From an uncultured Lachnospiraceae bacterium (GTDB lineage: Bacteria > Bacillota > Clostridia > Lachnospirales > Lachnospiraceae), in the NCBI GenBank assembly GCA_946626215.1, contig CAMOUD010000003.1, forward strand, positions 1-51,628: 51,628 bases of DNA, in the 5' to 3' direction. Of this stretch, positions 5,086-34,227 are shown piece by piece. Position 1 is the stretch's first letter, and each line of letters starts with the position of its first letter. The notes below the pieces were generated by a model. It had not been told where the DNA came from. It saw only the letters and a program-made list of their open reading frames with translations, and made no database searches. The position numbers were made by a program, and so were the translations under genes.

Positions 5086-5187
5086 GATCCATCCTTTCCG
5101 GCGCCCTGGTGTCCGGCGCCGCCGGCGGGCATATCTGTCTGGTCCTGGTTCCAGTATACCACGGCGGGGCCCTTTCCGGGCAGAGAA

Positions 5188-5233
5188 AGAGCCCCTGCCG
5201 GACCTGATCTCCCAGGAGGCCGGCAGGGGCTCT
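5188..5233 (-). terminator. Terminator downstream of RND permease gene
   Basis: 14-bp stem AGAGCCCCTGCCGG/CCGGCAGGGGCTCT; minus strand continues TTTCTCT. Confidence 0.65.
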
Positions 5234-5244
5234 CATATGCCTGT

Positions 5245-8200
5245 TCAGGCGGGGCCGGCGCCTTCTCCGCGGGCGCGCAGCTCTTCCATGAACTGGGCGG
5301 CGTCGTCGGGCGCCTCGTCCAGGTCGTCGCCCACATCCACGTTGAGGGGCGGACGCCTGTAAAAGATGTCGTACATGACGGGAATGATGACCAGGGTCAT
5401 CAGGGTCCCGTAGATCAGGCCGGCCGCGATGACGATGGCCATGCCGCTTCCCATCTGGGAGCCCATGCCGCTGCCGAAGATCAGGCCGGACATGGCCAGG
5501 ATGGTGGTCAGGGCCGTCATCAGGATGGGCCGCATGCGGGTCCGGCCCGTATAGACCAGGGCGTCTTCCCGTTCCATGCCGCCCTGCCTGAGCTGGTTGG
5601 CGTAGTCCACGAAGACGATGCCGTTGTTGACGACGGTGCCCATGAGGATCAGGAAGCCCATCAGGGACATCATGGACAGCTGCTGCCCGGCCAGGATCAG
5701 TCCCAGCATGCCCCCGGTGAAGGCCAGGGGAATGGTGAAGAGGACGATGAAGGGGGACAGGAGGCTCTGGAACTGGGCCACCATGACCAGGTAGATGAAG
5801 AGCAGGGCCAGGGCCATCAGCTCGCCCATCTGGCGGACCATGTCATTGACCTGGCTGGTCTCGCCCTCGATCTCCACGGTATAGCCCATGGGGGCCTGGT
5901 ATTCGTCCAGCCTCCTCTGGAGGTCCCTGGACAGGAGGGCGGTGTTGTAGCCCTCCAGGGTCTCGGCCGTCAGGGTCAGGTAGCCGGTCAGGTTCCTGCG
6001 GTTGATGGAGGAAAGGGAATCCGTCACCTCCAGGACGGCGAACTCGCTGAGGGTATGGACGGTGTCCTCCTTGTCCTCCTCTTTATCATCCTCCGCGTCA
6101 GAGCCCAGCATGGCGGCCATGGAGGCCATATCGCCGGAGGAGGCGGCGCCTCCCTGGGCGGCGCCTCCCTGGGCGGCGGCGGTCATAGAGGCGGAATCGA
6201 ATTCCATGTCCATGAGGTTCTCCACCGTCAGGGGATCGGTCTCATCCAGGATGACCACCTCCAGCTGGACGTCCCCGCTGGTGATGGTGGTGGAGGTGAC
6301 CCTGGTGGAGATCCTGCCCGCGATCTGGCCGTAGATCTGGGCCACGGTCAGGCCGCAGGACATGGCCTTGTCCTTGTCGATATAGAGATGGAGGGCCTGC
6401 TCCTTCTCATCCTCGCCGGTGTCCACCTCCCCGAAGCCCTCCACCTGGGAGACGATGGCGGCCACGTCGGACCGGATCTCCTCCAGTCTTTCGGTGCTGG
6501 CCCCGTAGATGTTGATGGTCAGGCCCTGGCCCACCAGGGCGCTCATGTCGGACATGCCGCCCGTGGAGGCTGAGACCTCGGCGCCCAGCCCCTCCGTGGC
6601 GGCCATGATCTCATCGCACATTTCCGCCATCCGGGAGGAAAAGTCCACGCCTTCCTCCGGCGTCACGTAGCAGAGGTAGCTGCCGTAGGCGTCCGAATCC
6701 CCTCCCAGGCTGGTCAGAAGGCCCAGGGTCGCCCCGGAGCTCATGGTGCCCACGTCCCGGACGCCCTCCACGGAGGCCACGGCTTCCGTGACCTGGTCGA
6801 CGATGGCATAGGACTCCTCCCGGGTGCATTCCTCGGGAGTCGTGATGGTGACCTGGATATCGTCACCGTTCATTTCGGGCAGGATGACGATGCCCATGGT
6901 CACCAGCCGGATGATGGAGATGACCAGGAGGACGATGGCCGCCGCCAGGGTCGCCAGCTTGTGGCGGAGGCACCAGCGGAGGAAGGGGTCATAGCGTTCC
7001 TGGACCCGCTCCATGAACCGGTTCCGTTTTGGCTCCGTATTCCTGAGGATGGTGGAGCCGGCGGCCGGGATGACCGTCATGGCCACCAGCAGGGAAGCCA
7101 GCAGACAGAAGGAAATGGACAGGGCCATGGGGACCAGGAGCTCCCGGACCGTGCCGCTGGTAAAGACCATGGGCAGGAAGACGCAGACCGTAGTCAGGGT
7201 CGAGGCGATGATGGCGCCCGCCACCTGCTTCGCGCCCTGGACCGCGGCCCTGGGGGCCGGGAGGCCCCGTCCGCGCAGACGGAAGATGTTCTCCATGACG
7301 ACGATGGAGTTGTCCACCAGCATGCCGATGCCCAGGGACAGGCCCGACAGGGTCATCATGTTGAGGGACAGGTCCGAGAAATACATCAGGACCAGGGCCA
7401 GGAGGACGGAAAGGGGGATGCCCAGGCCTACCAGGACCGTAGGCTTCCAGTCCTTGAGGAAAAGGGCCAGGATCAGGATGGCCAGGAGGGCGCCCAGGAT
7501 CATGCTGCGGAAGATATCGCTGACGATCATGGTGATGTATTCGCCCTGGTCCATCAGGGTGACCACATGGAGGCCCTCGTCCCGCTCCTCCAGCTCGGCG
7601 ATGGCGGCGGCCGCGTCTCTGGAAACGGCGTTGGTGCCGGCGGCCGAGGACTTGTAGATGGACAGGAGGATGGCGTCGTGGCCGTTGAGCTTCGCGTACA
7701 TGTCCCCGGCGTTGTCAATGACCGTCACATCGGCCACGTCCATGAGCCGGACCGTCCCGATGGGATCCACGTCGCACAGGAGGGCCCCCGCGATATCCTC
7801 GGAATCGTCATAGGCGTCGCCCACCTTCAGGAGCCAGGACTGGTCGTTCTTATCGTCGATATAGCCGGCCGGCATGGCAAAGTTCTGGGCGTAGATCATG
7901 CCGGAAAGGGTATTCAGGTTCAGGAGGGCGTCCAGGTTGGCGGTCTTCAGGACCTGTTCCCTGGAGGCCTCCAGCTGGGTCTGGGCGTTCTTGAGCTGGT
8001 TCTGGGCGTCCATGAGCTGGCCCGCGGCCGTGGAAAAGCCCACCGCGGCGGACAGCTGGGCCTGGGTCAGGCCCCCGTAGAGCTTCTCCATGCCGTTCAC
8101 GATGTCCGGGACCCGGTCCATGGAGGCGGATACGCCCTCCATGGCTCCGATGACGGCGTCCACGGAGGGGCCCGTCTGTCCGGAGGTATCCATGGCGGAG

Positions 8201-22252: not shown

Positions 22253-22361
22253 TTATGTGTTGTCTCCTTTATGATCCAGTGTTTATGCCGGCTTCAGCGA
22301 TTTCAGTTTTATCGTTTGTGTCCTTTCGTGCCCCTCTAAAAGGGGTCCGGCGCAATAGAGA

Positions 22362-22390
22362 ATTATACCATGCCGGCCCTTTCTTCTCAA
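22362..22390 (-). promoter_or_regulatory. Promoter upstream of ychF
   Basis: TTGAGA-17 bp-TATAAT on minus strand. Confidence 0.6.
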
Positions 22391-22648
22391 CTCGTTTGGG
22401 GAGAAATCGCCGGCGCTTTTGAGTGTTTTTGATATTTTTCTTTGATTCTCCTCTTTTATGGCGGGCATTCCCCGATATCGGCTCTTTGCTTCAAGAGAAT
22501 CTGAATCATTTTCTGAGAACGGTTCCCCGCCTGAAGATGCTCTAAGAAAAAACTCATGAAAATCCGTAAGCGCTGTATAATGCGGTCCTATGCGGAACCG
22601 GCCGTTTTCATCAATCTCTGTTCAGGCAGTTTCGAATTGTATACCGTG

Positions 22649-22662
22649 ATGATTCGAATCAT
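22649..22662. promoter_or_regulatory. Perfect 14-bp palindrome upstream of HTH/DUF3990 operon
   Basis: ATGATTCGAATCAT, 17 bp upstream of the -35 box. Confidence 0.45.
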
Positions 22663-22679
22663 ATGACGAATGAAACGGT

Positions 22680-22709
22680 TTGACATAGTTCGCAATCAAG
22701 AATTATAAT
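22680..22709 (+). promoter_or_regulatory. Consensus promoter of HTH/DUF3990 operon
   Basis: TTGACA-18 bp-TATAAT. Confidence 0.75.
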
Positions 22710-22776
22710 TGAATATATGCTTTATAGGCAGCTGATGACAACGGATATGTTTTTGTCGGAGAGAAGGACTTGCCAT

Positions 22777-23001
22777 ATGATTGGAGGATTCGTAAGCATC
22801 AGGGAGAAAGCGGAAGAATGGGGCGTAACTCCTCGAAGGGTGCAGGCAATGTGCGCTGCAGGAAGAATTGAGGGAGCCGGTAAAATCGGAAACATGTGGC
22901 TGATTCCTGTTCATGCAGAACGTCCGATCGATAAGCGTGTGACCACAGGCAAGTACAGAAACTGGAGAAAAAACAGTTTGATAACAGAGGTGGGAAAATG
23001 A
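22777..23001 (+). CDS. Small HTH DNA-binding protein (MerR/excisionase-type winged helix)
   Basis: FVSIREKAEEWGVTPRRVQAMCAAGRIEGAGKIGNMWLIP; in-frame ATG at 22777 with GGAGAGAAGG upstream (22717 ATG would be at the predicted TSS). Confidence 0.8.
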   Translation: MIGGFVSIREKAEEWGVTPRRVQAMCAAGRIEGAGKIGNMWLIPVHAERPIDKRVTTGKYRNWRKNSLITEVGK

Positions 23002-23213
23002 ATCAGGAGTCTTTTTCATTTGTTATATATATGATTCATGCCTGCGCGAACAAATGGCAGAGGATGCCTTCGGAGGTTTATCGCCTATTGCAGAGTACAG
23101 GCTGCATTGACCGGTATCTTGTGCCGCATTATGATATTCTGCATACTCAGAGCACGGATTTTGTTATTGAGGATATAATGGAATATCTCAGAGTCAGAGG
23201 TGCGAGCATATGA
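22998..23213 (+). CDS. DUF3791-like small protein
   Basis: 71 aa; FVIYMIHACANKW...VYRLLQSTGCIDRYLVPHYDILHTQSTDFVIEDIMEYLRVRG; ATGA overlap with upstream gene. Confidence 0.75.
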   Translation: MNQESFSFVIYMIHACANKWQRMPSEVYRLLQSTGCIDRYLVPHYDILHTQSTDFVIEDIMEYLRVRGASI

Positions 23214-23689
23214 TTGTCTATCATGGTTCTTTGGATATCATCACGCAGCCGGATGTCCTTCATTCGTTCAGACCACTGGACTTTGGAAGGGGATTTTATG
23301 TGACTACAGTCCTGGAGCAGGCACAGCGCTGGGCTAGGCGAAAAGCGGACCTGTTCAGAAAAGAAACCGCTGTTGTCAACAAATATGATATGTCGGAAAA
23401 TTACCGCGGTCTATCTGTAAAGACCTTTAACGATGATCTGATGGAATGGATCGATTTTGTCTGTGCCTGCCGTGACGGGAGTATGGCTTATAAAGAATAT
23501 GATCTGATCATCGGCAAGGTCGCCGACGATAAAGTGTTCCGGGTCGTCGATATGTACCACATGGGAATCTGGGATAAGAAACGGGCCCTGAAGGAAATCC
23601 GGGTCTATCAGACCTATGATCAGCTGGCTTTTATTTCACAGAAAGCGATCGACCAACTGCTTGTGTTCCAGTCTGCTAAGGAGGTGTGA
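23210..23689 (+). CDS. DUF3990-like protein, candidate ADP-ribosyltransferase-fold effector
   Basis: MIVYHGSLD...PLDFGRGFYVTTVLEQAQRWA...YDQLAFISQKAID; ATGA overlap with upstream gene. Confidence 0.75.
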   Translation: MIVYHGSLDIITQPDVLHSFRPLDFGRGFYVTTVLEQAQRWARRKADLFRKETAVVNKYDMSENYRGLSVKTFNDDLMEWIDFVCACRDGSMAYKEYDLIIGKVADDKVFRVVDMYHMGIWDKKRALKEIRVYQTYDQLAFISQKAIDQLLVFQSAKEV

Positions 23690-23692
23690 TCC

Positions 23693-23932
23693 ATGAGTGA
23701 TGATAATCTGGAACGGATCTATCAGGAGAATCTGGAGGAGCGGATCATTTCCTGCCTTGCGCGCACAAAAGGAATATCTCTGGAGCTGGCTATGAAAATC
23801 TATTACAGCAGCAGGCTGGCTGATAAGATTCACCGCGGCGACTACGGAGTACAATATCTGGATCATAAAGTCCTGGTGGAGATTCTGTGTGAGACAGAGC
23901 CGGAATTGGTGAATTCCATCATAAACAGCTGA
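23693..23932 (+). CDS. Small helical protein (79 aa), fourth gene of DUF3990 module
   Basis: Starts 3 bp after DUF3990 stop; EERIISCLARTKGISLELAMKIYYSSRLADKIHRGDYGVQYLDHKVLVEIL. Confidence 0.7.
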   Translation: MSDDNLERIYQENLEERIISCLARTKGISLELAMKIYYSSRLADKIHRGDYGVQYLDHKVLVEILCETEPELVNSIINS

Positions 23933-24100
23933 GACAGGATCCAGCTGTTCTGCAGGCGCTTCGGAGCAATCGATTCCGCGTCGGACATATCCCGGCTTTC
24001 TTCAGGCGCGCCAATTTGGCAGTAAGCAGTAAAAGATCGATATTTAAGATTCACAGGATCCTCTTTCCCGGAAAGCACGGTTCCATGTGATAGTATGACG

Positions 24101-24139
24101 GACCGGCCGGTTTCACAGGTATGTGAAATCCGGCCGGTC
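24101..24139. terminator. Strong hairpin closing the DUF3990 island
   Basis: GACCGGCCGG-TTTCACA / TGTGAAA-T-CCGGCCGGTC, single-base bulge, 4-nt loop, no U-tract. Confidence 0.5.
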
Positions 24140-24299
24140 TATTGTGCTGCCCTGCTTCTTATAAAGAAGGCTCCTTTATCACAGTTTCATCCCTTCCATT
24201 CGCCTCCCTCAAAAGACAAAAGGCCGGAGCAGTAAGTATTGACCGCACGGCGGACTGCGGCCGGACAGGGATCATCCAGGGGATGCAGGACCTGTTCTG

Positions 24300-24869
24300 T
24301 CAGTCTCCGCTTTTCTCTCCGTCCCGGAACCCCGCCGGATCCAGCGTCTTCACCACCTTCGCGGGATTTCCGACCACGACCGCATAGTCGGGCACATCCT
24401 TTGTCACCACAGAAGCCGCACCGACAATGGCATGCGCGCCGACCCGGATTCCCGGCAGGATCGTGGCCCCGGCCCCGATCCATGCGTTCCGTCCGATCAG
24501 GATGGGCCTGCAGGTCAGGACCAGCCTCTCATAGGGATCGTGGTTGTTGGTCAGAAGCTGAACATTGGCCGCGATCTGCACATCATCCTCTATGGTGATC
24601 CCGCCTCTGGCCATAGCAAGGAGATTGGCGTTGATCACAACGTTCCTTCCTATTTTGATCCTGTTCAGGCAGGTCCCCTGGATGGGTGCTGCCACGCAGG
24701 ACCCTTCTCCCAGGTTCTCCCCGAAGAGGTCGTCCAGCGCCTGCTGGTAGGCCTCCGTCCCCGGCATGGTATGGTTCAGCCTGAATATCAGCTCAGCCAG
24801 TCTCCTGTTCTCCTCCGCTCTCCCGGGATCCGGAACGCGCAGGTCAACTCTGGTCTCTTCATAGTTCAT
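24300..24869 (-). CDS. Sugar O-acetyltransferase (maltose/galactoside acetyltransferase, LbH hexapeptide family)
   Basis: IGRNVVINANLLAMARGGITIEDDVQIAANVQLLTNNHD, IGRNAWIGAGATILPGIRVGAHAIVGAASVVTKDVP. Confidence 0.93.
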   Translation of the reverse strand: MNYEETRVDLRVPDPGRAEENRRLAELIFRLNHTMPGTEAYQQALDDLFGENLGEGSCVAAPIQGTCLNRIKIGRNVVINANLLAMARGGITIEDDVQIAANVQLLTNNHDPYERLVLTCRPILIGRNAWIGAGATILPGIRVGAHAIVGAASVVTKDVPDYAVVVGNPAKVVKTLDPAGFRDGEKSGD

Positions 24870-25177
24870 GTGACGCCTCCTGTGATGGACCTTAATCTGC
24901 AGCCGGCCGCCCCTGCTCCGGAGCAGCCTTTATAATCATACCCCATCAAAGCCCGCTGCCGCAATCGAACCGGCCTTTCTTTTATTCCCGAAGCTAAACC
25001 GGAGACCCGCCTCCATGGACCTGAGGATAAGACTATGCTGCCTTTTGTCCGTCCTTTATACTAAAAACAGGACCGGCCGGACCGCCGCTCCGGACCATCC
25101 GGGCTTCAACTCCGGGGCGGCAGAATCTGAACTATACATGCACCTGATAAAGCAGTGTGAAAGAGTGACCGAAAGCC

Positions 25178-26428
25178 ATGAAAAAAAGCCTCGTACATTC
25201 CCTGTATATGCTTCTTCTCCTCTCCTTCCTCTGCCTGCCGGCGGGGTGTGGTCTGACAGGGGGGCAGGACAGGCCAGGAGAAGAACAGGAAGCTTTCCTG
25301 AAGGAGGAAGCGGAACAGCCTCTGTCAGAGGGCCCTCTCTGGTCAGATCCAGGCAGCCTGAAGGCAGTGATCATTTCCGACCTGCATTTCACGAAGGACC
25401 AGTCCCTCTACCACCTGCTGATCCCCGGCCTGGCGGAAGCGGAACGGATCACGGACGCGCTGACGGAGGAGGTGATCGGCCTCCATCCGGACGTCCTGAT
25501 CATGACCGGCGACAACACCAACAGCGGGGACCCGGCTGACGCGGAGGCCCTGGCAGGCAAACTGCAAAAGGTCAGAGAAGCCGGGGTTTCCATCATCCTG
25601 ATTCCCGGAAACCATGATTATGATCAGATGGACGCCGCGGCCTTCGAGAAGACCTATTTCGATCTCCTGGATCCGGTCGACAGGGACCCGTCCTCCTTAA
25701 GCTACACCGCCGTCATTAAGGACGTGGTCTTCCTGGCCATGGACGACAGCGCTATGCGTCCCGGGGGCCAGGGGGAATTCTCTCCGGAGTCCATGCAGTG
25801 GCTGGAAGACCAGCTGGAGGCTTATCAGGGGCATACGGTCATCTTCCTCTCCCATCACAACGTTCTGTACGGCTTTGGAGAAAAGAACAGCGCCTCCCAT
25901 CTGATCCGGAATCCTGACCCGGCCTCTCTTCTGACAGAAAAAGGCGTCCGGCTGGCCCTGACCGGCCATATGCATTTCCAGTACATTACGGAGAGGGACG
26001 GCCTGTGGGAGATCCTGAGCGGGATGCCCTTTTCCGGGAACCATCTGATGGGGCATCTGGCCGCGGGCAGGAGCGGACTGGTCTACTACGCCTCCCCCAT
26101 GGACCTCCATACCTATGACAGGTCTCTGGAAGAAGACCTGGCCCGCCTGGACCAGGAAAGCGCGGACAGCATGGAGCTGGTCTTTTCCGGGATCCTGGAT
26201 GAGGAGGGACTGAAGGGAACGAGAAAGCTGGAGGTCATGGCCCTCCTCCGCAGGTTCCTTTCCTATAATAAGGAAGGCACCCTGGCAGACCATATCGAAG
26301 AACTGAGATCCGATCCCGCCTATGACCGGATGCTGGATGCCCTCAGGGACTACAACTACGGCCCCTGGATCCAGGCCATGATCGAGGCCACCAGGTACCC
26401 AGCGGCCAGGCTCAGGCTCACCTGGTGA
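25178..26428 (+). CDS. Metallophosphoesterase lipoprotein (calcineurin-like)
   Basis: Lipobox LPAGC; SDLHF, GDNTNSGD, GNHDYD, SHHN, TGHMHFQ. Confidence 0.92.
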   Translation: MKKSLVHSLYMLLLLSFLCLPAGCGLTGGQDRPGEEQEAFLKEEAEQPLSEGPLWSDPGSLKAVIISDLHFTKDQSLYHLLIPGLAEAERITDALTEEVIGLHPDVLIMTGDNTNSGDPADAEALAGKLQKVREAGVSIILIPGNHDYDQMDAAAFEKTYFDLLDPVDRDPSSLSYTAVIKDVVFLAMDDSAMRPGGQGEFSPESMQWLEDQLEAYQGHTVIFLSHHNVLYGFGEKNSASHLIRNPDPASLLTEKGVRLALTGHMHFQYITERDGLWEILSGMPFSGNHLMGHLAAGRSGLVYYASPMDLHTYDRSLEEDLARLDQESADSMELVFSGILDEEGLKGTRKLEVMALLRRFLSYNKEGTLADHIEELRSDPAYDRMLDALRDYNYGPWIQAMIEATRYPAARLRLTW

Positions 26429-26525
26429 GCGACAGACTGAAGGGGGCTCTTCCCTTCCTTATGAAAAAGGAACGCAAAAGAAAATCCGATCCTGCCTGTT
26501 TCTGACGGGCTCCGGAGGATATGAA

Positions 26526-26568
26526 AGACCGGGCGGCTGCTCCACTATCATGGACAGCCGCCCGGTCT
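26526..26568. terminator. Bidirectional-looking terminator between convergent genes
   Basis: 14-bp perfect stem AGACCGGGCGGCTG/CAGCCGCCCGGTCT. Confidence 0.65.
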
Positions 26569-26631
26569 GTATGCTTCTCTTTTTCCGGAAGGAACCGGTC
26601 TCCTGAGCCCCTTCCTCTTTCCCTATCCGGA

Positions 26632-27963
26632 CTACCTCCTGTTCGACCTCCTCCAGATGTTCTGCCGCTCGGCTCCCTGGATCAGGTCCTCCCGGAAGTC
26701 CGGATGGGCAATGGAGATCAGAAGCTCCGCCCGTTCCCAGCTGGTCTTGCCCACCAGGTTGACGATCCCGTACTCCGTGGCCAGGTAGTAGGCCTGGCTT
26801 CTGGGATCCGTGACGATGTCTCCCTGGAAGCTGGGCACGATCCGGCTCTTCAGCTGTCCGGACCTGTCCCGGAAGGTGGAGGTCATGCAGATGAAGGCCT
26901 TGCCGCCCCTGGACATGGCGGCCCCTGTCAGATAGTCCAGCTGGCCCCCAGTCCCGCTGATCTGCCTAAAGCCCACGCTTTCGGCGCTGATCTGGCCGTA
27001 AAGGTCCGCCGCGATGCAGTTGTTGATGGAGATCATATTGTCGAGCCGGCCGATGACGTCCGGTGAATTGACATGCTCCAGGGGAGCGAAGATGACCCCC
27101 GGGTTCTCATCGATCCAGTCATAGAGGGCCCGGGACCCGATGGCCAGGCCGGTCATCCCCTTGCCCCTGTAATAGTTGGTCCGGTTAGTCAGCTTGCCGG
27201 CCTCATAGAGGTCCACATAGGCGTCCGAGCAGAGCTCGGTATGCATGCCCAGGTCCCTGAGGTCCGATCCGGCCAGGAGCCGGCCCAGGGTATTGGGCAT
27301 GCCGCCGATCCCCAGCTGGAGAATGGCCCCCGAGGGGATCAGGGGAATGATATAGTCGGCAATGTCCAGGTCCTCCTTTGTGGGAGCCGGGACCGGGATG
27401 GAGGGCAGGGGCCCGTGGTCTCCCTCCACGATATAGTCCGCTTCGGAGATATGGACGCACTCATCGAAGCCTCCGTTGACCCTGGGCAGGTTCTCATTGA
27501 CCTCCAGGATCACGATGTCGGCTGTTTCCAGGATCCCTTTGCCGATGCCCGTGGCGCAGGACAGGTTGAAATAGCCGTGCCGGTCCATGGGAGTCACGCA
27601 GGCCATGGCCACATTGACCTTCAGGAAGTGCTTGTAGTACTGGACCAGGTTCCGGAAGATCATGGGTATGAAATCGCAGAGGCCCCTGTCCCAGAGCCTT
27701 CTCTCATAAGCGCTGCAGTGCCAGGAGCTGTAGGTGAAATGCTCCCGCCCGGGATCGGATTCCACCGTCTTCAGGGGCCCGAAGACCAGGTTGGACCGGA
27801 GCTTGACATCCGTCAGCTCGTCCTTTCTTTCTGCCAGGGCTTCCTCCAGAAGGACAGGGAAGCAGACGTTGGGCATGAAGTCCACAAAGTCCCCGCTTTT
27901 GACGCATTGGACCGCCTCCCGGGGCGTCCTCAGCTTTGACCTGTATTCCATCTGATAATCCAT
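26632..27963 (-). CDS. Acetyl-CoA hydrolase/transferase family CoA-transferase (butyryl-CoA:acetate / 4-hydroxybutyrate type)
   Basis: HTELCSDAYVDL, QISGTGGQLDYLTGA, GIGGMPNTLG, ATEYGIVNLVGKT. Confidence 0.88.
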   Translation of the reverse strand: MDYQMEYRSKLRTPREAVQCVKSGDFVDFMPNVCFPVLLEEALAERKDELTDVKLRSNLVFGPLKTVESDPGREHFTYSSWHCSAYERRLWDRGLCDFIPMIFRNLVQYYKHFLKVNVAMACVTPMDRHGYFNLSCATGIGKGILETADIVILEVNENLPRVNGGFDECVHISEADYIVEGDHGPLPSIPVPAPTKEDLDIADYIIPLIPSGAILQLGIGGMPNTLGRLLAGSDLRDLGMHTELCSDAYVDLYEAGKLTNRTNYYRGKGMTGLAIGSRALYDWIDENPGVIFAPLEHVNSPDVIGRLDNMISINNCIAADLYGQISAESVGFRQISGTGGQLDYLTGAAMSRGGKAFICMTSTFRDRSGQLKSRIVPSFQGDIVTDPRSQAYYLATEYGIVNLVGKTSWERAELLISIAHPDFREDLIQGAERQNIWRRSNRR

Positions 27964-28074
27964 AGTAACCTCTCCTGAAGCTTCTCTTTTATCTCCGTTT
28001 TCCCATCTTCCTTGTCTTTTCCTGTCCCTTATACTTCATTGTACCATCGTTTTCTTCCGGCTCCAACACATACA

Positions 28075-28098
28075 AAAGAGGCCCCGAAAGGCCTCTTT
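28075..28098 (-). terminator. Terminator downstream of TIR operon
   Basis: AAAGAGGCC/GGCCTCTTT stem; minus strand ends TTTTGTATG. Confidence 0.85.
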
Positions 28099-28172
28099 GA
28101 AAACGTAAGCAAATGGATCCTTGCCTTGAAATCCATCCGCTTCCCGGAAGTCCCGCGAAGCGGAGCCGGTCC

Positions 28173-30308
28173 TTATATTCCTCTTCTCTCCAGCCTTTCG
28201 TCCAGGGCCTTCGCGTAGGGCAGAAGGTCCGGGAAGCCGCTGGAGGACAGGAGCTTGAAATTCAGGGGCAGGACGGTGACGCCGTGCCCGAAGAGGGTGA
28301 TATCTCCATCCAGACTGAAATCCGAAAAGAAATAGATCCGGAGGGCCTGGATGGCGCTGATGCCCCGGAGGCACCTGTTCACGTAGGTCCTGGACTGGTC
28401 CAGGTCTCCCATCTGCTCATAGAGATAGGCCGCCGCATATTCATAGCGGTGGATCTCCAGATAGAGCATGTAGTCGGACAAAAGGGACCCGTAGAGGGCA
28501 GCGATGATCTTGTCGCAGTATTCGACCCCCAGATAGGCCTCCCCCATCATGACAGCCAGCTCCAGGGTCTCCCGCATCATCCGGTAGGCCTTCTGGGGCG
28601 GCAGCTGGTCCAGGGCCCGGTCTCCGTATTCCAGGAACCGGCGGAGCCGCTGCACATCCTCCGGCCGGAAGCTCCGATAGATGCCGAACCGCTTATCCAC
28701 CACCGGATCGTTGTCGGCCCCCTGCCGGATCAGCCTGGCGGTCAGCGTCCTCCTGGCCATGTTCATTTCCTGATAGACCCGGTCCGATTCCCGAAGAAGG
28801 GCCTTGTCCGGAGCCGCGGCAGGACTCCCGAACAGCGCTGTGGGAGACTTGGCCTCCCCGCCGGCGATGGCCCTGAGGATCAGGGTCTTCAAGGCGTCGA
28901 AGGAATACCAGATCACCCGGACAAAAAAGTCGGGCTCGCTGCTGCAGAGCATGGTATCCCGGAAGACCGGCAGGTATTCCCGGGAGACCTCCCAGGAGAA
29001 ATCCGGGGGGACGAACACGATGGGCTCCGGAGCCCCTGAGATCGCCCGGAGGCCCAGGGCCATTTCCAGCTCCGCCGCGGGCCACTGCTTCCGGACGCTG
29101 GTCTCATCGGCAAAGGCAATGAAATAATCCGCCACCAGCAGGCCCATGAAGATGGACCGCCGCCAGGAGCTGCCCCGGGGAATCCCTTCCTTATCCACAA
29201 AGCATTCGATCCCTGCCTCCCGGCAGAGGGCAAAGAGCTCATCGACCCTCTGGCAGGCCCAGGGAGAGGAATGGGTATAGGAAACAAAGATCCGGATCCT
29301 CTTCCCTCCTGTCCAGGCTTTCCTGAGGGCGTTGGTGATGGGCCTTCGGCCTGAATCCCTGAGCATCCTGGCCAGAGCGGACTTGTCCGCTCCCGTGCTC
29401 ATGGTCTTGTCCAGGGCCCGGAAGCGCCTGAACCGGCTTCCCACCACCCGTCTTCTGCGGAGGATATCCAGGACCAGGTCCAGGATAAAGCCCGGAAAGA
29501 CCAGGAACCAGATGGGGCCCGGCTCCTCCAGAAAGGCCGCCAGTCCTCCCGGGGCCGCCATGGCCAGAAGGAGGAACAGAAAGACATCCGGCGGATAGGA
29601 CACCAGCCGGTCGTATTCGTTGACCGCCCCGGACAGGCCCTTCTGAAAGACGCCTGCCAGCACGGAAAAAAGCATGATCCATCCCAGCCAGACCGTGAAG
29701 GGAAGAATAAAGACCTGCCAGCTCCTGACAAGAGCCAGAGGCCCCGGCAGGACGGGCAGCCATTTCCCGAATACCATCAGGCCAAAGAGGAAAAGACTGT
29801 ATCCCAAAGAAAAGACTGTCAGGACCGTCGCCCCCCAGCCCAGATAAAAGTCTGCCTGCCGGTGAAGAGAGGTCCTTTTCCTTTCCCGGGCCTGCTGCTC
29901 CCAGGTCTCCAGATAGAGGCGGATCTGGCCCGCCAGCTCATGAAGATCGGTCCCGGCCGTGATCTGGACCACGTCTCCCAGGAGTGCAAGGGCGGAATCC
30001 TCTCCTCTCCCCAGAATCTCCAGGAATTCTTCCCCTGAAAGGTCGGCCGGGAACACATAGGCCCTGAGGTCCTGGGCGTCCTCCCGGCTGAACCTGTCCG
30101 TGATCCTCCGGCTCAGCGCCTGAAAGCTCTCCCCGGTCCCATAGCTTTTCCGGTAGGGCAGGATCAGGGCCCGGGGAAGGTCTGACCGGCAGGCCTCCTC
30201 CAAAGTCACGCTCCTGAGAGAGCAGGAGGAAGGAAGGAGCCTCTCCAGGCTCCGCCGGATCCCTTCCAGGTCAGGGGACCTGTCCGTGATGAACCATAAG
30301 GTTTCCAT
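28173..30308 (-). CDS. Membrane-anchored TIR-domain protein (711 aa)
   Basis: Central TIR domain KRIRIFVSYTHSSPWACQRVDELFALCREAGIECFVDKEGIPRGSSWRRSIFMGLLVADYFIAFADETSVRKQWPAAELEMAL (about aa 337-440); hydrophobic helices at aa ~155-283; helical C-terminus. Confidence 0.85.
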   Translation of the reverse strand: METLWFITDRSPDLEGIRRSLERLLPSSCSLRSVTLEEACRSDLPRALILPYRKSYGTGESFQALSRRITDRFSREDAQDLRAYVFPADLSGEEFLEILGRGEDSALALLGDVVQITAGTDLHELAGQIRLYLETWEQQARERKRTSLHRQADFYLGWGATVLTVFSLGYSLFLFGLMVFGKWLPVLPGPLALVRSWQVFILPFTVWLGWIMLFSVLAGVFQKGLSGAVNEYDRLVSYPPDVFLFLLLAMAAPGGLAAFLEEPGPIWFLVFPGFILDLVLDILRRRRVVGSRFRRFRALDKTMSTGADKSALARMLRDSGRRPITNALRKAWTGGKRIRIFVSYTHSSPWACQRVDELFALCREAGIECFVDKEGIPRGSSWRRSIFMGLLVADYFIAFADETSVRKQWPAAELEMALGLRAISGAPEPIVFVPPDFSWEVSREYLPVFRDTMLCSSEPDFFVRVIWYSFDALKTLILRAIAGGEAKSPTALFGSPAAAPDKALLRESDRVYQEMNMARRTLTARLIRQGADNDPVVDKRFGIYRSFRPEDVQRLRRFLEYGDRALDQLPPQKAYRMMRETLELAVMMGEAYLGVEYCDKIIAALYGSLLSDYMLYLEIHRYEYAAAYLYEQMGDLDQSRTYVNRCLRGISAIQALRIYFFSDFSLDGDITLFGHGVTVLPLNFKLLSSSGFPDLLPYAKALDERLERRGI

Positions 30309-30323
30309 ACTCTCCTCCTTTCC

Positions 30324-30797
30324 TCATCGGCCGGGCAGAAAGCTGATGGCCGTCGCCAGGCCGTCCGGAAAGATCCGGGAAAAGACCAGAAAATAGATCA
30401 GGGCGTACAGGACCTCCACCAGAAGGCTCATAAGAACGGGCCTGCGGACAAAGCGCATGTCCCGGTCTGACAGAATGAAGGAGAACTCGACCAGGAGGAG
30501 GAAGCAGAAGAGGGCGAACAGGACAAAAAAGAGGGCCCGGACCAGGGGAGGCTGCATGAAGACAGCGACTCCGGCCAGGATCAGGGAAAGTCCCCTGCAG
30601 AGGGTCCCCCATCTGCGGATCCGAAGGATGGCGTTCCCCTGGGCGGCCAGCTCCGCGCTTCCGTCAAAGGCTTCCCTGAGCTCATAGATCAGGGGCGTAA
30701 GCCTGGCCCAGGTAAAAATGACCTGAAGGGCGAAATGGCAGACAGAAAGTCCGAAGGCGGCAAGAAGCGGAACAAATCGAGACAGGTTGACCAGCAT
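30324..30797 (-). CDS. Small 4-TM membrane protein, partner of TIR protein
   Basis: Start at MLVNLSRFVPLL (GGGAGG upstream) rather than 30866; four hydrophobic stretches; 15-bp gap to TIR gene. Confidence 0.8.
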   Translation of the reverse strand: MLVNLSRFVPLLAAFGLSVCHFALQVIFTWARLTPLIYELREAFDGSAELAAQGNAILRIRRWGTLCRGLSLILAGVAVFMQPPLVRALFFVLFALFCFLLLVEFSFILSDRDMRFVRRPVLMSLLVEVLYALIYFLVFSRIFPDGLATAISFLPGR

Positions 30798-30864
30798 ATG
30801 GATACCTCCCGGCCGGACAGGCCTTTTTCCAGAACATGAAACACAGCATGATCGATATACCGTC

Positions 30865-30873
30865 ATTATAGCA
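30865..30873 (-). promoter_or_regulatory. Extended -10 promoter of TIR operon
   Basis: minus strand TGCTATAAT; weak -35. Confidence 0.5.
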
Positions 30874-30933
30874 TTGTATATAGGACATTTGAGGAAAGGG
30901 GCCCTTTTTTTTGAATTCCGGTCAGAAAGAAAA

Positions 30934-30959
30934 AGGACCCGCCCCGAAGGACGGATCCT
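30934..30959 (-). terminator. Terminator downstream of rsgA
   Basis: minus strand AGGATCCGTCC-TTCG-GGGCGGGTCCT (G.U wobbles) followed by TTTTTCTTTCT. Confidence 0.85.
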
Positions 30960-30998
30960 GCGTCTTCATGGATCCTGACAGTCCGGCTTTCCTTCCCG

Positions 30999-31929: not shown

Positions 31930-34155
31930 TCAATATTCCGCTGTAAAGCTGATCTCGCGGGTAATGGTCCTGGGCTCCGTGATCCGGACAGTCCGGGTCG
32001 TGGTCCTGGGCTCCGGTTCGGGCTGGGGCTCGGCGGGCTGTTCTTCCGCGTCGCCGCCCTCCTCGATCACGGTCTCATCAATGACATCCTCTCCATTGTC
32101 CCCTGCCTGGTCATCGTCCGTCTCTTCCAGAACGACGGTCTCCTCTTTTTCGTAGGTGTAGTCCCAGGTCATGGTCACAATGCCGGAGGAATCAGTGATG
32201 CCCGTATACTGGGATCCCTGATAGGGGAAGGAGGATGTGGTCGTGTCCAGAAGGACCTGACCGGAATTGGTCCTGACCACGATGTGGACCGCTGTCCCGT
32301 CCTCATAGTCGCCGCCCTGGCTGCCGTCGGCCGTCGAAGGCTTGTCGATGCGGGCTGTATAGGAGTAGGTCATCTGACCGCCGATGGTCAGGTCGACCGC
32401 CGTGCCCTCATCCACATAGGTGGACTTGAGGACAGACTGCCCGATGACCTTGCCGATCTCGGAATTGTTCATGGTAATGACGGTGCGGACCGTACCGACG
32501 GTCAGCCCCATCTGGCTCAGCATGCTCCTGGCCGCCTCTTCGGAAAGGCCGGTCAGGTCGATCATCTGGACCTTGCCCTCCAGGTCGGGGCCTGTGGAGA
32601 CGGTGATGGCCACCGTTGAGCCGTGCTCTGCCAGAACGGCAGGCTCCGGCGTCTGGGAAATGACGCATCCTTCTTCGATCTTTTCAGAAGCGGCCTCCGT
32701 GACCGTCACTTCAAAGCCGGCCTCCGTCAGGATCTCCTCCGCTTCTTCCCGGGTCTTTCCAAGGACGTCCGGCACCTCCACGCCTTCATCGGCGGAGACG
32801 GTCAGGATGACCGTGGTCCCTACCTCGACCTCCGATCCCTCTTCCACGCTGGAGCCTATGACCAGGCCGGGATCGAATTCATCGGTGATCTGCAGCTCCA
32901 CCCGGGGCACCAGGCTCCGGCTGGTCACCAGTTCTCTGGCCACTTCCTCGGTCTTTCCGATGACCTCGGGCATGACCGTCATGGCGGCCTGCTCCTGGGT
33001 CTGTCCCATCAGATGGATCCAGCCCAGCCGGTCCGCCGCGATGACGATGATGATGATGCCAACGATAATGGCGGCCGCGATGGAGATGATGGAGGTCATC
33101 CGCTCCGTGCGGCTGTCCTTCTCCTCTTCCTCCTCATCGTAGTCGTCGTCATCCGGGACAAAGCTCCCGCCGCCATGGCCGCCCCGGACAGTCTCCGCGC
33201 CGGAAACGGGCGTTTCCGCAACGGCCTCCGCCGTCTCGGCAGCCGCCGCGGCAGCGATGGTCTTCCTTTCTTCCTCCGTCATGGGCCTGGTGGCTCCCAG
33301 GTCCTCGGGATTGACCCGTTTGACAAAGCTGCCGTCCGGGTCCTTGATGCTCCGCCGGAGGTCGCTCATCAGCTCCGCTGTGTTCTGGTAGCGCCTCTCG
33401 GGGCTCTTTTCACAGCACTTCAGGATGATCTGCTCCACGCTGTAGGGCAGGTCGGGCACGAAATCCCTGGGAGAAGGCATGGGGTCCTGGATATGCTTGA
33501 TGGCGATGGCCACCGTAGTATCTCCGGTATAGGGGACCTGGCCGGTCACCATCTCAAAGAGGGTGATGCCCAGGGAATAGATATCGGATTTCTCATCCGA
33601 GTAGCCGCCTCTGGCCTGCTCGGGAGAGGTATAGTGGACGGATCCCATGACATTGGCTGTAATGGTGTTGGAGGTCGCGATCTTGGCGATGCCGAAATCC
33701 GTGACCTTGACCTTGCCGTCCTTGGAAATAATGATGTTCTGGGGCTTGATGTCCCTGTGGATAATGTGATTCCGATGGGCAGCCTCAAGGCCCATGGTGA
33801 CCTGGATCGCGATGCTCAGGGCCTCGTTGGCAGGGAGCCGGGTCCTGGATTCAATGTATTTCTTGAGGGTAATGCCGTCCACCAGTTCCATGATGATGAA
33901 GTAGACGCCCTTTTCCTCGCCCACATCGTAGACATTGACGATGTTGGGATGGGTCAGGCCGGCCGCGGCCTGGGCCTCCACCCGGAACTTGGAGACAAAG
34001 TTGGCGTTCTCCGAAAATTCCTGTTTCAGGACCTTGACCGCGACGAACCGGTTCAGCTTGTGGTCCTTGGCTTTATATACATCTGACATGCCGCCGTTGC
34101 CGACCTTTTCAATGATCTCGTAACGGTCCGCGATCAGCATTCCTAGTTTAACCAT
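31930..34155 (-). CDS. prkC: Stk1/PrkC-type Ser/Thr kinase with PASTA domains
   Basis: DRYEIIEKVGNGGMSDVYKA, HRDIKPQNII, DFGIAK, TM, about three PASTA repeats. Confidence 0.96.
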   Translation of the reverse strand: MVKLGMLIADRYEIIEKVGNGGMSDVYKAKDHKLNRFVAVKVLKQEFSENANFVSKFRVEAQAAAGLTHPNIVNVYDVGEEKGVYFIIMELVDGITLKKYIESRTRLPANEALSIAIQVTMGLEAAHRNHIIHRDIKPQNIIISKDGKVKVTDFGIAKIATSNTITANVMGSVHYTSPEQARGGYSDEKSDIYSLGITLFEMVTGQVPYTGDTTVAIAIKHIQDPMPSPRDFVPDLPYSVEQIILKCCEKSPERRYQNTAELMSDLRRSIKDPDGSFVKRVNPEDLGATRPMTEEERKTIAAAAAAETAEAVAETPVSGAETVRGGHGGGSFVPDDDDYDEEEEEKDSRTERMTSIISIAAAIIVGIIIIVIAADRLGWIHLMGQTQEQAAMTVMPEVIGKTEEVARELVTSRSLVPRVELQITDEFDPGLVIGSSVEEGSEVEVGTTVILTVSADEGVEVPDVLGKTREEAEEILTEAGFEVTVTEAASEKIEEGCVISQTPEPAVLAEHGSTVAITVSTGPDLEGKVQMIDLTGLSEEAARSMLSQMGLTVGTVRTVITMNNSEIGKVIGQSVLKSTYVDEGTAVDLTIGGQMTYSYTARIDKPSTADGSQGGDYEDGTAVHIVVRTNSGQVLLDTTTSSFPYQGSQYTGITDSSGIVTMTWDYTYEKEETVVLEETDDDQAGDNGEDVIDETVIEEGGDAEEQPAEPQPEPEPRTTTRTVRITEPRTITREISFTAEY

Positions 34156-34227
34156 ATCAACCTCACACACATTCAGACAGTCTGCAGGTTCCTCCCGTCC
34201 CGGCGGGGCAGGTCCGGTCCCCCGGAC

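Follow-up and report, generated by a model that had tools for sequence, protein, structure and literature searches.

A membrane-anchored TIR protein and its four-helix partner form a candidate immune module in a Lachnospiraceae bacterium

The window analyzed here (the whole stretch of 51,628 nucleotides from an uncultured Lachnospiraceae bacterium) contains a two-gene unit in which a small membrane protein, P0002, precedes a larger protein, P0001, that holds a TIR domain in the membrane. The TIR domain is genuine by both Pfam and fold and has the catalytic motif, and the distribution of the two genes supports an accessory rather than a housekeeping status. The effector domain is of a known kind; its architecture and its pairing look new. 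We consider the chances about even that the pair is an accessory, membrane-gated immune module of the abortive-infection type, with a putative NADase as its effector and a presumed role in defence. The features of the unit are as follows.

28075-28098, minus strand: intrinsic terminator of the P0002-P0001 pair (terminator prediction)
28173-30308, minus strand: TIR gene P0001, 711 aa (soluble N-domain, four TM helices, TIR, helical C-terminus)
28176-28841, minus strand: C-terminal helical domain of P0001, aa 490-711, weakly TPR-like (sub-threshold TPR_8; low-confidence model helices)
28863-29300, minus strand: TIR domain of P0001, aa 337-482 (Pfam TIR_2 and fold)
29070-29072, minus strand: codon of E413 of P0001, the presumed catalytic Glu of W-x3-E (W409) (alignments; PMC11374754)
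29460-29846, minus strand: four TM helices of P0001, aa about 155-283 (hydropathy)
29859-30308, minus strand: N-terminal soluble domain of P0001, aa 1-150 (family searches without a match)
30324-30797, minus strand: P0002, four-TM-helix protein of 157 aa without a family (ORF call, hydropathy, family searches)
30865-30873, minus strand: extended -10 promoter TGCTATAAT (motif scan)
30934-30959, minus strand: intrinsic terminator after rsgA, parting the pair from the upstream genes (terminator prediction)

Both genes lie on the minus strand, and P0002 ends 15 bp upstream of P0001. The ORF lengths and spacing given by the first-pass annotation were confirmed, and direct reading showed a strong Shine-Dalgarno sequence for each gene (GGGAGGTATCCAT-ATG for P0002 and GGAAAGGAGGAGAGT-ATG for the TIR gene). 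The separate promoter, the separate terminator and the fencing by the rsgA terminator, all claimed in that annotation, were likewise recovered. The window contains three copies of the extended -10 motif, where 0.22 would be expected. P0002 and P0001 are predicted to be co-transcribed.

Pfam TIR_2 covers aa 339-432 of P0001 (E=1.5e-10; 42 bits, above the gathering threshold of 28), and fold comparison likewise gives a TIR domain, naming AbTir, TcpB/BtpA and PdTIR. The AlphaFold model of P0001, which was built with three TIR relatives, had low overall confidence (pLDDT 50), although the greater part of aa 341-430 reached a pLDDT of about 70-84, with a dip at the BB loop (aa ~374-380). In this model, strands and helices alternate over aa ~337-482 as in the flavodoxin-like TIR fold. 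Its top matches in the PDB were TIR domains, with TM-scores on the target of 0.64-0.68 for AbTir, BtTir, TcpB and PdTIR; the NAD-consuming AbTir reached 0.68, and the NAD-consuming SARM1 and Cat1 were also matched. A search of solved structures with P0001 found TcpB/BtpA (E=1.3e-5) and aligned KQWPAAELE with KQWPARELD, so that W409 and E413 line up with the WPAxE motif and W-x3-E is kept, as had been predicted for E413. Both residues are also conserved in P0003, a distant relative with ~29% identity. The glutamate of W-x3-E is required by most bacterial TIR NADases (PMC11374754), and a TIR protein can either deplete NAD itself, as the effector, or produce an ADP-ribose-type signal for an effector encoded in the same operon (PMC12847820). 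These observations suggest that the TIR domain of P0001 is a putative NADase.

The layout first read from the sequence (a soluble N-terminus, hydrophobic helices, TIR and a helical region) was borne out by hydropathy, Pfam and the model. Hydropathy placed the TM segments of P0001 at aa 162-180, 199-217, 242-260 and 265-283, and this block is flanked by arginine-rich, positive-inside stretches (RERKRTSLHR before and RRRRVVGSRFRRFR after). The N-domain and the TIR domain are both most likely cytoplasmic, because the arginine-rich flanks at the two ends of the block lie on their side. Family and profile comparisons of the N-domain (aa 1-150) gave no match; the idea that it is a second, degenerate TIR was unsupported in a profile comparison, for which a single sequence gives little power. 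For the C-domain (aa 490-711), the best match was TPR_8 (E=0.005), under the gathering score and the only match to either terminal domain; a PDB match to RelA (E=0.039) was taken as chance. The model shows the C-terminal ~220 aa as helical, at low confidence, and is unreliable over both terminal domains.

P0002 has four TM segments by hydropathy (aa 9-27, 63-81, 85-103 and 121-139), in line with the four hydrophobic helices described earlier, and its structure model consists of four helices at moderate confidence. Almost the whole protein is membrane helix, and the loops are short. No family match was found in Pfam, NCBIfam, PADLOC or PHROGs, a fold search returned no match, and family searches detected no macro, SLOG or other soluble ligand-binding domain. 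A comparison with the TM part of P0001 gave no support for P0002 being a copy of it. No recognisable sensor domain was found in either protein.

The nature of P0002 bears on how the pair might work. In type II Thoeris, the partner of the TIR protein is a TM-macro effector, which perturbs membranes (PMC12847820). A comparable division of labour, with the TIR domain making an ADP-ribose-type signal and P0002 acting as a membrane-perforating effector, would fit this two-gene precedent and the membrane-helix content of P0002, but we consider it quite improbable. P0002 has short loops, matches no family and lacks both a ligand-binding domain and the SIR2-SLOG, macro-TM or caspase-like domain of the effectors (ThsA, TM-macro or caspase) that accompany the Thoeris TIR protein ThsB. 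P0001 is itself anchored in the membrane and has two extra domains, whereas the TIR proteins of known Thoeris systems are, to our knowledge, soluble. Matches to ThsB and ThcB4 were weak and confined to the TIR domain (ThcB4, 11.4 bits against a cut-off of 220). Because P0002 lacks any ligand-binding domain, it is simpler to suppose that a membrane partner directly regulates a membrane-tethered NADase, and we rate this reading at about one chance in two.

Other known systems share parts of this design. The fold and the aligned W-x3-E motif are common to P0001 and the TcpB/BtpA, AbTir and PdTIR class, but those chains were matched over the TIR domain only, whereas in P0001 it is preceded by four TM helices and followed by a helical C-domain, with a membrane partner gene alongside. 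CBASS TIR-STING, Pycsar TIR and retron/RT-TIR effectors also use TIR as an NAD-depleting output; the operon here, two genes between terminators, has no CD-NTase, pyrimidine cyclase, STING or reverse transcriptase, and the RT-TIR/retron-TIR match was limited to the TIR domain (38.7 bits against 600). SpbK of B. subtilis, a single-gene TIR NADase, is a direct abortive-infection effector of the mode proposed for P0001, but its trigger is the phage protein YonE, and no membrane pair is described (PMC12847820). Dictyostelium TirC, a TIR NADase, carries a membrane segment at its N-terminus and becomes toxic to the amoeba when this segment is removed; it differs in having one predicted TM helix, no partner and a eukaryotic host (PMC13142454). 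No defence-family model spans the whole of P0001 or of P0002, and the combination fits no catalogued system, which agrees with the first-pass annotation, in which the arrangement was not recognised as a named defence system.

The pair does not behave as vertically conserved housekeeping genes. P0002 was found in 1 of 62 genus genomes, the window's own, whereas its neighbour rsgA was found in all 26 good-quality genus genomes. Searches of 36 genus relatives with P0001 (E<=0.001) gave nothing beyond one short TIR-only match, and 396 other sampled genomes of the family gave none at E<=1e-8 (1/397). Samples of the order, class and phylum yielded one true relative, the distant TM-TIR protein P0003, which comes from another family of the same order and is encoded at one end of a 5.6-kb contig. 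The match between P0003 and P0001 (29% identity) extends from the last TM segment through the linker and over the TIR domain, and by eye the two share an ALFxxP stretch after the TIR; because P0003 stops there, P0001 has its C-terminal domain in addition. P0003 starts at the contig edge, so that the contig does not reach the upstream gene of this sole relative for pair co-occurrence. Several further matches were rejected. Those in Pseudomonas (L004; a YLETWEQQ peptide shared with an unrelated ORF) and in an ethanolamine-ammonia-lyase-like gene (L056, genome G832) were chance matches, and a small TIR protein that lacks TM helices (L063, genome G515) and the TIR and TIR-NTPase proteins of L057 have the TIR alone in common with P0001. 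The L057 locus (G687:C58, 515-4561, plus strand), from a relative in the family, is a tandem TIR arrangement in which a 349-aa TIR protein is directly followed by a 992-aa TIR-NTPase with a repeat-rich C-terminus. The window's own genome encodes a second TIR protein (L002/L060, G000:C121, ~5096-5401), in which an NTPase-like domain comes after the TIR within a 1241-codon open frame.

The pair lies in a genome-specific insert, in which the following features were identified.

22253-30998, no strand: insert between rsgA and ychF that holds the pair (rsgA and ychF adjacent in the nearest relatives; junction sequences)
22717-23932, plus strand: HTH/DUF3791/DUF3990/79-aa cassette, candidate defence system PDC-M13, low GC (PADLOC match, domain searches)

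The distance from rsgA to ychF is 8.7 kb in the window, whereas ychF begins 13-14 bp past the rsgA stop codon in the two genomes with the most similar rsgA (L036 and L037; 76% and 75%). Over five compared loci (L036, L037, L041, L046 and L049), this junction varies in length between 13-14 bp and 4.5 kb. In genome G020 it carries 4.5 kb of other cargo, a two-component regulator/ABC transporter, and the junction therefore behaves as a variable insertion site. No tRNA or integrase gene was found at the window's junction, no RNA family within the insert and no tRNA in the whole window. The assembly, in 243 contigs, is fragmented (completeness 90%, contamination 3.3%); contamination as the source of the contig was ruled out, because rsgA identity and gene order fit the genus. 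The pair has a genome-like GC content (0.59-0.62), and codon usage of the TIR gene is near that of core genes. The pair is accessory, yet, as its GC and TIR-gene codon usage look native, it was not acquired recently from a donor of different GC. Upstream of the pair, a PASTA serine/threonine kinase (31930-34170, minus strand) received very high PADLOC PD-T4-6 scores, which are likely a false call because the kinase is a conserved housekeeping gene beside rsgA.

Besides the pair, the insert contains the PDC-M13 cassette and genes for a CoA-transferase, a phosphoesterase and a hexapeptide transferase; rsgA and the CoA-transferase flank the pair. The cassette has a GC content of 0.42-0.47, against 0.60 for the window. 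Proximity to known defence genes, which the first-pass annotation had suggested examining, was thus found in part: the patchily distributed pair shares its insert with PDC-M13, but the cassette is ~4.2 kb away, not adjacent, and listed by PADLOC as a candidate that is itself unproven.

Two readings without an immune role were weighed against this setting. TIR domains can serve as scaffolds too, and P0001 might be an ordinary membrane protein that serves signalling or assembly and has a non-catalytic TIR and a TPR-like C-terminus, as its metabolic neighbours and native codon usage would allow. We regard this as unlikely, since W-x3-E is retained across ~29% identity and sporadic occurrence is atypical of a housekeeping signal protein. 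Alternatively, the two genes might form a toxin-antitoxin-like pair with no role against phage, a selfish or stress-response module in which P0002 is the membrane inhibitor of a toxic TIR enzyme. The small gene does come first, the spacing is tight and the insert is shared with another toxin-antitoxin-like cassette (DUF3791/DUF3990); the toxin would be much larger and more complex than usual, and plasmid, phage and viral-contig searches found no relatives of the pair, while one E. coli plasmid matched P0003 in the TIR region only. We think it improbable, more so than a scaffold.

For the NADase module, we propose that P0001 and P0002 would assemble into a complex within the cell membrane, in which the TIR domains are kept apart or inactive, with P0002 as a membrane regulator or sensor. 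The TIR domains may cluster upon a disturbance caused by phage, or when the N-domain, the TPR-like C-domain or the membrane partner senses a phage protein; NAD+ cleavage by the clustered domains would then halt the infected cell. Every step past a TIR with its catalytic motif in the membrane is inferred. In its favour, we count the TIR match and fold, W409 and E413 in P0003, the separate promoter and terminator, the patchy distribution, the variable-site insert and PDC-M13. Native GC and TIR-gene codon usage count against it, as do the metabolic nature of the other insert genes, the distance of PDC-M13, the lack of a recognisable sensor domain and a rarity of the pair that precludes a co-inheritance test and limits proof from sequence alone. 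Of the immune, NAD-depleting system first proposed, the TIR with its motif, the self-contained unit, the accessory status and the nearby candidate cassette stand as observed, and NADase activity and defence stay putative. A more specific version, a distinct, unnamed two-component immune system in which P0002 detects a phage membrane protein or damage to the membrane and then releases the tethered NADase directly, with no need for a nucleotide messenger, is a tentative possibility that we consider rather unlikely. Most of the bacterial TIR defence proteins characterized so far are soluble, with messengers or soluble phage proteins as their triggers. If the proposal is true, bacteria would have a simple counterpart of membrane TIR receptors, in which four helices hold the TIR domain in the membrane beside a dedicated membrane partner, and NAD-depleting immunity could be triggered by membrane events.
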